Source: Afipia sp. GAS231 (GTDB taxonomy: Bacteria > Pseudomonadota > Alphaproteobacteria > Rhizobiales > Xanthobacteraceae). From it: a stretch of DNA of 64,000 nucleotides. Below the pieces are notes generated by a model that saw only the letters and a list, made by a program, of their open reading frames with translations, did not search any database and had not been told where the DNA came from. The stretch is from NCBI RefSeq assembly GCF_900103365.1, contig NZ_LT629703.1:1178001-1242000 (forward strand), in the 5' to 3' direction. Each line of letters opens with the position of its first letter. Position 1 is the stretch's first letter. This document shows, piece after piece, positions 22,551-64,000 of the stretch. Made by a program: the position numbers and the translations under genes.

Positions 22551-22591
22551 GGCTGACGGATCTCCGTTAACCTCTGGCCACGCCCGAGGTA

Positions 22592-22629
22592 GGCAGAATT
22601 TGCCCGGTGTATGGTTAACGGTCGGTTAA
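22592..22629 (-). promoter_or_regulatory. CtrA-type box and FlbD-like element upstream of flgB
   Basis: TTAA at 22615-22618, seven bases, then TTAA at 22626-22629 make a perfect CtrA recognition motif. GGCAGAATTTGCC at 22592-22604 (GGCAAATTCTGCC on the minus strand) has GGCA/TGCC arms and recurs exactly at 58430. Both sites lie 40-80 bases before flgB in the 392-base divergent gap to fliO. The rest of the gap shows scattered TTAA words but no sigma-54 match on either strand. The sites are seen directly. The protein assignments are inferred. Confidence 0.7.
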
Positions 22630-22942
22630 AATTGCCGATTCCCGGTAGGGACAAAGCGCGATGCCCGCGGCCGGCAACAAAACGAGCGCATTTTCGCCAC
22701 GAAAGCTGCGTTAACCAGCAAAAGCCAACGCTGGCGGGGCATTCAGAAGTCGTTTTGGATCAAGCGATTCTTGGTCTATTAATTAACGAGCGGCAGCGCT
22801 TGCCGTCGGGAATTAAGAAATAAGGCTGATCTCGGGCGTGATTCGCCGGGATTGATCGCTTCGGGGCACGACCCCGATGAGCGGGAAATTTCCAGGCGTC
22901 ATGCTCACATGGTGAGAATGACGCGTGGCTGGGGACACAAGT

Positions 22943-46003: not shown

Positions 46004-46018
46004 TTAAGGTTTTGTTAA
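46004..46018 (-). promoter_or_regulatory. CtrA-type box upstream of the TPR protein
   Basis: TTAA at 46004-46007 and TTAA at 46015-46018 with seven bases between, in the 103-base gap between motE and the 1285-residue gene. Perfect consensus. It implies a separate promoter for the large gene within the flagellar cluster. Confidence 0.7.
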
Positions 46019-61572: not shown

Positions 61573-61938
61573 TCAGACCTGACCCGACAGGCCCGCGGCG
61601 ATGTTGCAGTTGATGTCGATCAGCGATTTCAGCTTCGCCGGATCCGGATTGATCTGCATGTCGATCGTCTGCTTCATGACGAACACGCCGATATTCGCGA
61701 TGTTCTGCCTGATCTCCAACGACTGCGGGTTGTCGTTGGTTTCCGCCGCGCTCATGAAGATCGACCACAGCCGGCGGTTGAACAGCAACGCTTGATGCAG
61801 GCTCTTGTCAGGGCCGGTCCAGTTGACCTGGACGTCCTGTAATTGTCTTGCTGCCTTCAGCAGGGCCTGCGCCTCGATTTCCCGAGGGGATGCCGTCGTG
61901 TGTGACGTGCGGGCATAGGCTTGAGCGGCATGAGACAT
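61573..61938 (-). CDS. flaF: Flagellin synthesis regulator FlaF
   Basis: A 121-residue protein with YARTSHTTASPREIEAQALLKAARQLQDVQVNWTGPDKSLHQALLFNRRLWSIFMSAAETNDNPQSLEIRQNIANIGVFVMKQTIDM, the FlaF family. In Caulobacter FlaF promotes flagellin translation opposite FlbT. No flbT is in this window. A TTAA-N7-TTAG near-CtrA site lies upstream at 62008. Confidence 0.93.
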   Translation of the reverse strand: MSHAAQAYARTSHTTASPREIEAQALLKAARQLQDVQVNWTGPDKSLHQALLFNRRLWSIFMSAAETNDNPQSLEIRQNIANIGVFVMKQTIDMQINPDPAKLKSLIDINCNIAAGLSGQV

Positions 61939-62007
61939 CCATCACCTCTGGGAACGCTTTACGCAGGGACAATTCGAAAGCTGCCCAACGCTTGTACGGC
62001 GCTGCCT

Positions 62008-62022
62008 TTAAAATATGGTTAG
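62008..62022 (-). promoter_or_regulatory. CtrA-like box (one mismatch) upstream of flaF
   Basis: TTAA at 62008-62011, seven bases, TTAG at 62019-62022, 70 bases before the flaF start. One mismatch to the consensus, in the 213-base gap between the flagellin terminator and flaF. Confidence 0.45.
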
Positions 62023-62097
62023 TAGTTGTTACCGTATTTGTCCGGAGTTGGGCAAAGAAGGCCGTCATGACCGACGGCACGGCACGGTGGTCAGGTC

Positions 62098-62128
62098 AAG
62101 AAAGCGGCGGGATTTCCCCCGCCGTTTT
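62098..62128 (-). terminator. Terminator of flagellin gene 1
   Basis: On the minus strand CGGCGGG (62124-62118) pairs with CCCGCCG (62111-62105), followed by CTTTCTT. The stem is nearly identical to the one after the second flagellin gene. Confidence 0.8.
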
Positions 62129-62151
62129 GGTCTTGTTTCTTGCCGTCGGGA

Positions 62152-63318
62152 TCAGCGCAGGAGCTGCAGCACGCTCTGCTGCGACTGGTTGGCCAGCGAC
62201 AGCGCGGAGACCGCGATCGACTGGCGGGTCGACAGCGCCTGGCTGTTGGCCGCTTCCTCGTTGGTATCGGCCACCGTCAGGTTGGCCGAGCCGGTCTGCA
62301 GCACGTTGATCAGGTTCTTCGAGAAATCCTGACGGATCTGCACGACGGAGAGGTTCGAGCCGAGAGACGAGGCTTCCGTCCGCAGCGCGCTCGACGCGGC
62401 ACTGATCTTGGCGATCGTCGCATTGGCCGAACTGTTGTCGAGGAAGTCGGTACCGGAGACCAGCGGGCTCAGGCCGAGGCCAGCCGCGCTGTAAGTGACG
62501 CCGGCGATGTTGAGCGTGGACTTGCCGGTTTCGTTGAAAGTCAGTTTGAGGTTGTCGCCGTTGAGCAGGTTGATGCCGTTGAAGGAAGCATCCTGCGCCG
62601 TGGTGGTGATCTGCGTGATGATGTTGTTGTACTGGGCGACCAGGCTGGCGCGAATGGTCTGCGAAGCCGAATCGGCAACCGGCGGGGCAACCGCGCCAAA
62701 GGTCACCGTACCACCGCCCGTCGCGGTATAGGTGACGGCGCCGATGGTGGACGAAGCCGCGTCGTTCGACGTGGTTATGACAAGCTTGTTGGCGCTGTCG
62801 AGGCTGGCGGTCAGGTTGTTGGCCGCCAAAGCGGTGTTCAACTGGGCAAGGGACTCGTTGGCGCCGAAGGTGATGCTGGTCGCCGTTCCGCCGCCGGTCG
62901 CGGCGATTGCCAGAACGTCGCCGGCTTTGATGGTAACGCCATCAACCAGATTGGTCGGGGTGCCACCGAGGGCGGCAGCCGAAGTCACCGTCGACTTGGG
63001 TGAATAACCAGTGGTCGTCTGCAGAACCTGGCTGGCGATCGACTTCGCGGTATCGACCAGCTTCTGCAGCGAGGTGAGGCCGGTGTTGGCAGCCTGCAGC
63101 ACCTGCACGCCGTTGCCGATACCATCGAGCAGATTGTTGATGTCGCTGGCGCGGTTATCGAGACCCTGCGCGGTGAAGAAGTTGGTCGGGTTGTCGAGCG
63201 CCGAGTTAACCTTCTTGCCGGACGAAAGGCGGCCCTGCGTGGTGGCTAGCAGTTCGGCGGTCGACTGCAGCGACAGCAGGTTCTGGCGAACCGATGCCGA
63301 AAGGACAATACCGGACAT
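62152..63318 (-). CDS. fliC: Flagellin, copy 1
   Basis: A 388-residue filament protein with conserved ends (N: LSASVRQNLLSLQSTAELLATTQGRLSSGKKVNSALDNPTNFFTAQGLDNRASDINNLLDGIGNGVQVLQAAN; C: RQDFSKNLINVLQTGSANLTVADTNEEAANSQALSTRQSIAVSALSLANQSQQSVLQLLR) and a variable Thr/Ala/Gly-rich middle. Its C-terminal 130 codons are almost identical to flagellin copy 2. Its upstream region carries an array of TTAA half-sites. Confidence 0.97.
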   Translation of the reverse strand: MSGIVLSASVRQNLLSLQSTAELLATTQGRLSSGKKVNSALDNPTNFFTAQGLDNRASDINNLLDGIGNGVQVLQAANTGLTSLQKLVDTAKSIASQVLQTTTGYSPKSTVTSAAALGGTPTNLVDGVTIKAGDVLAIAATGGGTATSITFGANESLAQLNTALAANNLTASLDSANKLVITTSNDAASSTIGAVTYTATGGGTVTFGAVAPPVADSASQTIRASLVAQYNNIITQITTTAQDASFNGINLLNGDNLKLTFNETGKSTLNIAGVTYSAAGLGLSPLVSGTDFLDNSSANATIAKISAASSALRTEASSLGSNLSVVQIRQDFSKNLINVLQTGSANLTVADTNEEAANSQALSTRQSIAVSALSLANQSQQSVLQLLR

Positions 63319-63365
63319 GTGTCAAACCTTCCTAGTTTACGTCCCGCCGTTCTACGGTAACTCCT

Positions 63366-63415
63366 TTAAGTTATAGTTAATGCCGGCTTAAGTTGTTTGA
63401 TTAACGCTTTCTTAA
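63366..63415 (-). promoter_or_regulatory. Array of CtrA-type TTAA half-sites upstream of flagellin 1
   Basis: TTAA at 63366, 63377, 63388, 63401 and 63412. Pairs 63366/63377, 63377/63388 and 63401/63412 each have exactly seven bases between, giving three perfect TTAA-N7-TTAA boxes in 50 bases, centred about 70 bases before the flagellin start. The 11-base step keeps half-sites on one face of the helix. Confidence 0.75.
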
Positions 63416-63468
63416 AGCGCGCCGCTATGCCCTGCGGACGGGCTTCGGCGTGTTGAACCACCAAAACG

Positions 63469-63500
63469 AAAAAAAACGGCGGGGTTTCCCCCGCCGTTTT
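63469..63500 (-). terminator. Terminator of flagellin gene 2
   Basis: On the minus strand CGGCGGGG pairs with CCCCGCCG around a short loop, followed by an uninterrupted T8 run (63476-63469). The best intrinsic terminator in the window. Confidence 0.92.
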
Positions 63501-63523
63501 GGTCTTGTTTCTCGCTTTCGAGA

Positions 63524-64000
63524 TCAGCGCAGGAGCTGAAGCACGCTCTGCTGCGAGGTATTGGCCAGCGACAGCGCGGACACCGCGATCGACTGGCGGG
63601 TCGACAGCGCCTGGCTGTTGGCCGCTTCCTCGTTGGTGTCGGCCAGCGTCAGGTTGGACGCGCCGGTCTGCAGCACGTTGATCAGGCTCTTGGAGAAGTC
63701 CTGGCGGAGCTGCACGACGGACAGGTTCGAACCCAGCGCCGACGCTTCGGTGCGGAGCGAGGTGCTGGCCGCGCTGAGCGTGACGAGCGCCTTGCTCGCA
63801 GAGCTGTTGTCGAGGAAGTCCGTTCCCGCGGCCAGCGAAGAAAGGCCAAGGCCCCCAGCGTTGAAGGTGACACCGGTGATGTTGAGCGTGGACTTGCCGG
63901 TTTCGTTGAAAGTCAGCTTGAGGTTGTCGCCGTTGAGCAGGTTGATGCCGTTGAAGGAAGCATCCTGCGACGTGGTCGAGATCTGCGTGATGATGCTGTT
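63524..64000 (-). CDS. fliC: Flagellin, copy 2 (N-terminal part beyond the window)
   Basis: Only the last 158 codons are present. The visible sequence (ASFNGINLLNGDNLKLTFNETGKSTLNITGV...LSVVQLRQDFSKSLINVLQTGASNLTLADTNEEAANSQALSTRQSIAVSALSLANTSQQSVLQLLR) is a flagellin C-terminal D1/D0 region almost the same as copy 1. It lies 205 bases upstream of copy 1 on the same strand, with its own terminator. Confidence 0.95.
   Translation of the reverse strand, partial: NSIITQISTTSQDASFNGINLLNGDNLKLTFNETGKSTLNITGVTFNAGGLGLSSLAAGTDFLDNSSASKALVTLSAASTSLRTEASALGSNLSVVQLRQDFSKSLINVLQTGASNLTLADTNEEAANSQALSTRQSIAVSALSLANTSQQSVLQLLR

Follow-up and report, generated by a model that had tools for sequence, protein, structure and literature searches.

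A conserved CtrA-type array of five TTAA half-sites before one flagellin gene of a tandem set in Afipia sp. GAS231 and its relatives

Flagellins driven by CtrA (in Sinorhizobium) and promoters carrying several CtrA sites (in Caulobacter and Agrobacterium) are already known. In Caulobacter, the full sites at which CtrA activates start near -35 (at -39 for ctrA P2; PMC4287350), and the pilA promoter has four CtrA sites (PMC11264516). No report of a CtrA-driven flagellin in Bradyrhizobium was found among the titles and abstract openings listed by searches of an open-access library, and the main text of the comparative paper PMC2877005 names neither Bradyrhizobium nor flagellin. The present analysis concerns an array of five TTAA motifs (half-sites) at 63366..63415 of a 64,000-nucleotide stretch of the Afipia sp. 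GAS231 genome, hereafter the window (contig NZ_LT629703.1, positions 1,178,001 to 1,242,000). The array lies before a flagellin gene of 388 amino acids (62152..63318), and most likely lets the cell-cycle regulator CtrA control this one flagellin, as judged from the sequence comparisons that follow. The array, this gene and the other features given below with coordinates from 61573 upwards are placed on the minus strand.

Half-sites were numbered from the gene outwards. Half-site 1 (63366..63369), whose register is conserved among relatives, forms with half-site 2 (63377..63380) the proximal box TTAA-N7-TTAA, predicted to overlap the -35 position; half-site 2 is common to the next box, which it forms with half-site 3 (63388..63391), seven nucleotides (nt) further. 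Half-site 4 (63401..63404) follows after nine nucleotides and half-site 5 (63412..63415) after seven more, so that the minus strand reads TTAA-N7-TTAA-N9-TTAA-N7-TTAA-N7-TTAA. Exact N7 pairs are thus found at 63366/63377, 63377/63388 and 63401/63412, and one N9 pair at 63388/63401. The array stands 47 nt before the ATG of the flagellin gene and is A+T-rich relative to its surroundings.

An earlier note, made from the letters of the window alone, had placed five TTAA at these positions before a flagellin gene; the sequence agrees, and the encoded protein matches Pfam PF00669 and PF00700. The note had also described three successive N7 pairs, stepping by 11 bases along one face of the helix. The three pairs are exact, though not all successive, as 63388/63401 is an N9 pair, and the stepping holds for three steps, being interrupted once by 13 bases (start-to-start steps of 11, 11, 13 and 11). 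The DNA helix has 10.5 bp per turn, and the 13-base step, which is conserved, turns half-sites 4 and 5 by about 86 degrees against half-sites 1 to 3. The idea of a single face is therefore only partly right: the five half-sites are not all in helical phase, and with the N9 step and two boxes overlapping on half-site 2 the sequence does not offer plain stacking along one face.

The window contains five occurrences of TTAA-N7-TTAA, where 0.03 are expected (the largest count in 100 shuffles was 1), although TTAA by itself falls short of expectation (29 observed, 47 expected). The triple TTAA-N7-TTAA-N7-TTAA has a single occurrence in the 7.58-Mb genome. The whole-genome scan that the earlier note had proposed returned 40 occurrences of TTAA-N7-TTAA, among 88 TTAA pairs spaced by N5 to N9; the spacings N5, N6, N8 and N9 together gave 48 pairs (mean of 12 per spacing), and N10 to N30 gave 153 (7.3 per spacing), totals that may be slight undercounts, since the counting tool does not state how overlapping variable-gap matches are handled. 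With one spacing out of five, the binomial probability of at least 40 pairs in 88 is about 6e-8; for the reversed control AATT (47 of 253 N5-N9 pairs) it is 0.74. The excess is specific to N7. All but two of the 40 N7 sites are intergenic according to a crude gene caller. The 46 genes starting within 300 nt of an N7 site (41 scanned with Pfam, 5 with NCBIfam only) include those for flagellin, FlgB, FliO, a MinC-type septum inhibitor, a sigma-70 factor, a PilZ protein, RmuC and a transglycosylase, a list that is purely descriptive.

Conservation was followed by aligning 41 promoters (39 distinct) on the exact triple, and hence selected on the three proximal half-sites: 13 came from flagellin clusters chosen by protein, 7 were taken for carrying the triple from a set of 74 loci, and 21 were triple loci. 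Promoters without an exact triple (L171, L028, L047 and L031) stand outside these counts. Half-sites 4 and 5 played no part in the selection. At the position of half-site 4, 27 of the 39 distinct promoters have an exact TTAA and all 39 have it with at most one mismatch; for half-site 5 the corresponding figures are 9 and 35. The remaining 23 offsets from -28 to -4 reached a count of 6 at most, again allowing one mismatch. When only the 13 cluster promoters are counted, an exact half-site 4 is seen in 12 and an exact half-site 5 in 3, the latter rising to 11 if one mismatch is allowed. These counts indicate that the five-site layout is conserved with a fifth site that is usually imperfect; the perfect fifth site of the window is not the rule among relatives. 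The spacers vary across the aligned promoters and the half-sites and their spacing are retained; a lack of conservation in related strains, which the earlier note would have taken as refutation, is not what is seen. The central box reads TTAA-CCATAMT-TTAA in most of the aligned promoters, and the TTAACCAT read there is a reported CtrA variant (PMC6180460).

The cluster set consisted of 20 stretches fetched from 60 genomes of the same genus, plus the cluster of the window itself. These 21 loci hold 55 flagellin starts, 14 of which have an N7 pair within 230 nt. Where a locus contains at least two flagellins (15 loci), the flagellin that is read last, and no other, is preceded by the N7 pair in 14; the gene following the array-bearing flagellin in all 14 is flaF, which in the window lies at 61573..61938 (Pfam PF07309). 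L165 is the exception; its genome has another cluster, L164, where an N7 pair is present. Of the 14 array-bearing clusters, 13 have an exact proximal triple, and the remaining one, L171, keeps exactly half-sites 1, 2 and 4 only. The array is conserved among orthologous promoters with exceptions at single-flagellin loci, none of the six having an N7 pair. In the 74-locus set, an N7 pair lies within 160 nt in 9 loci and the triple is present in 7; two of the 74 have almost no upstream sequence, and several others begin inside the gene because the match does.

Named relatives of the array-bearing flagellin include Bradyrhizobium, Afipia and Nitrobacter. Among 291 genomes of the family, 129 have the triple; in the genus of the window it is present in 52 of 76 genomes, against 3 of these 76 for a triple spaced by N8. 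In 30 triple loci that were fetched, a flagellin start lies 52-99 nt downstream in 21. The register is also retained in a second genus of the family (L090 from Afipia massiliensis, L098-L106 and L109-L116). A stricter form with a TTAACCNT core, which is not present in the genome of the window, was found in 9 of 297 genomes of an order-wide sample, all 9 belonging to the same genus; this sample holds 13 genomes of that genus, and the rest of the family is represented in it by just 3. Other genera of the family have two further recurring triples, one TTAACCTTCATTTAACGCGCYTTTAA-like and one TTAACCTTTGCTTAACGYGCCCTTAA-like (L094-L097, plus second matches in G190, G222 and G178), and no flagellin match was found beside those of L094-L097.

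In all 39 distinct promoters the last TTAA is followed by a hexamer starting with TA, at 11 nt in 34 and at 12 nt in 5; it reads TANAA in 22. It resembles the -10 element of alphaproteobacterial housekeeping promoters. In the window the putative -10 hexamer is TAGAAC (63349..63354), which follows half-site 1 at 11 nt. Provided that this is the true -10, transcription would start near 63342 and the proximal box would begin at about -38. The placement inferred for the proximal box is thus -35-like, and fits both the conserved hexamer and the published Caulobacter positions. No sigma-70 consensus promoter was found by scanning 62000-64000, as expected for an activator-dependent promoter.

By sequence criteria, a clear CtrA ortholog is encoded in the genome. 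The best match in the genome to a Caulobacter CtrA query sequence has 90% identity over 224 amino acids and scores 422 bits against the NCBIfam CtrA model, whose cut-off is 350; the next best match has 39% identity. Several TTAA and one TTAACCAT in the region before ctrA (L152:1140-1420) suggest that ctrA may be autoregulated. The N7 excess, the ortholog, the conserved registers and the predicted -35-like placement together give good support to the CtrA-type array that the earlier note had proposed before the flagellin.

We consider it quite probable that the array region is a CtrA-dependent promoter of this one flagellin, whose additional half-sites would set the threshold or the cell-cycle timing of expression. 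In the mechanism that we infer, covering CtrA binding, the start site, activation and the role of the extra sites, a CtrA dimer would bind the proximal TTAA-N7-TTAA, overlapping -35, and would recruit the housekeeping RNA polymerase to the -10 at 63349-63354. The other half-sites, which make up a second box overlapping the first and, beyond the N9 spacer, a distal one, would raise CtrA occupancy near the promoter, and through this occupancy they would set the CtrA threshold of this flagellin or its timing in the cell cycle. Its tandem paralog has no array and would have to be driven otherwise.

The sign of this tuning leaves room for a different account, in which CtrA binds, the proximal box alone drives the promoter, and the upstream half-sites mainly repress or delay it. 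This is a possibility to be taken seriously, although it is the less probable one. The upstream CtrA sites of Caulobacter pilA lower and delay expression, and activity was lowest when the pilA driving site was set in three tandem copies with 6-bp spacing (PMC11264516); the extra sites of the present array could likewise tune negatively. The geometry of the array points the same way: half-site 2 belongs to two overlapping boxes and can be held by the dimer of only one of them. The shared middle TTAA could also let a dimer occupy one of two registers, the proximal one activating and the other not, with the N9-offset distal box biasing the choice as phosphorylated CtrA (CtrA~P) rises; such a concentration-dependent register switch, timing one flagellin per tandem set and leaving the paralogs to another promoter box and a structured mRNA leader, is offered as a speculation that we hold to be rather doubtful.

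Several observations weigh against a CtrA-driven flagellin array. A direct comparison of counts with the reversed pattern AATT gives TTAA no global N7 excess (40 against 47). This control was set aside because AATT pairs are far commoner in the genome (253 against 88 for N5-N9), and the other TTAA spacings were used. Many of the genes neighbouring N7 sites, such as those for transporters and peptidases, are neither flagellar nor related to the cell cycle. The array is not universal, as 24 of the 76 genomes of the genus lack the exact triple, and the reversed control triple is present in 25 of the 76; 9 of the 30 fetched triple loci have no flagellin match, and four of the single-flagellin loci that lack an N7 pair carry flaF (L167, L168, L172 and L173). 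The central box of the window itself is TTAACTAT (spacer CTATAAC), not TTAACCAT. Another main ligand could be at work: a protein preferring TTAA or A+T-rich DNA, of the MucR/Ros type or another of the OmpR type, or else the array could be the A+T-rich upstream element of an ordinary promoter. The base composition of the array region agrees with this, as do the 65 matches to the CtrA query in the genome (receiver-only ones included) and the action of MucR at CtrA-activated promoters in Caulobacter (PMC4287350). However, A+T-richness alone yields neither an N7-specific excess nor fixed registers with varying spacers, and the closest other relative of CtrA has the 39% identity given above, which makes this explanation unlikely. 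That the pattern is due to chance, or was kept only by recent common descent and has no function, is highly improbable. The restriction of the stricter form to one genus in the order-wide sample would suit such an origin, but half-sites and spacing persist while the spacers vary, half-site 4 is substituted less than the spacers (as is half-site 5 when one mismatch is allowed), the register is kept in a second genus, and the promoters of the tandem paralogs lack the array.

In the window, the upstream tandem flagellin begins at 63524 (63524..64000, continuing past the window to about 64687), has a promoter without TTAA, and is separated from the array by a terminator-like hairpin (63473..63500). 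This gene (L124:7685 onward) and the genes behind 31 promoters in L154-L170 belong to the flagellins without array that have a promoter box of their own, resembling TTTCAY-N3-TTTSTTAG and located about 70-98 nt before the start, in 32 of 41 array-less flagellin promoters. They also have a common mRNA leader; in 17 of the 32, picked by eye, this leader has a hairpin of 6 pairs, 3 of which show two-sided changes, and a constant CCAGAARGG near the start codon. FlbT acts on flagellin mRNA in Caulobacter, and may on this background be tied to these leaders. A leader hairpin of the array-bearing flagellin of the window folds no better than shuffled sequences (z 0.55), and an Rfam search of the region gave no family at the gathering score, the two matches below it being taken as chance. 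A third type of flagellin promoter has only one TTAA, together with a conserved stretch resembling GTACGGAG-N6-TTAACGAACGGGTAG, upstream of flagellin in L069, L070, L072, L074, L082-L087, L089, L091 and L092. Elsewhere in the window, the space between the divergent flgB and fliO-like genes (22567-22816) contains TTAA-N7-TTAA at 22615 and five more TTAA, and is likely another CtrA target by its motif content; a further TTAA-N7-TTAA (46004-46018) lies 79 nt before a 474-amino-acid open reading frame without Pfam match.

Here an extended CtrA array occurs naturally and is conserved, combining a shared half-site with a conserved out-of-phase step; it makes testable how additional CtrA half-sites alter threshold or timing, and why one of several Bradyrhizobium flagellins seems tied to a cell-cycle regulator. 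Compared with the CtrA full-site promoters of Caulobacter crescentus (PMC4287350), motif, spacing and predicted placement are the same (about -38 here from the predicted start, -39 at ctrA P2). The earlier note had seen an arrangement beyond the usual single box, which stands against most C. crescentus promoters, where a single box is found instead of five half-sites with a shared middle one, and does not stand as a general novelty, since multi-site CtrA promoters are published (PMC11264516). The pilA promoter likewise has several CtrA sites before an appendage gene, one of them at -35, but they lie 3 to 78 bp apart, with a 6-bp spacing in sites 2 and 3, whereas the layout here is a contiguous 7-9-7-7 (PMC11264516). 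Multiple half-sites are also found within the Rhizobiales, in the ctp pilin promoter of Agrobacterium tumefaciens, which has six; as mentioned in PMC11264516, this promoter differs in serving a pilin gene and in having pairs reported at 6 and 7 bp. The flagellin genes flaA, flaB and flaC of Sinorhizobium meliloti are likewise direct CtrA targets in a rhizobium, with all three flagellins being targets, whereas here the array is found at one flagellin per tandem set (PMC4433202). What appears to be new with respect to these systems, as far as the searched titles and abstract openings show, is the conserved 7-9-7-7 layout and its limitation, within the family, to a single flagellin per tandem set.
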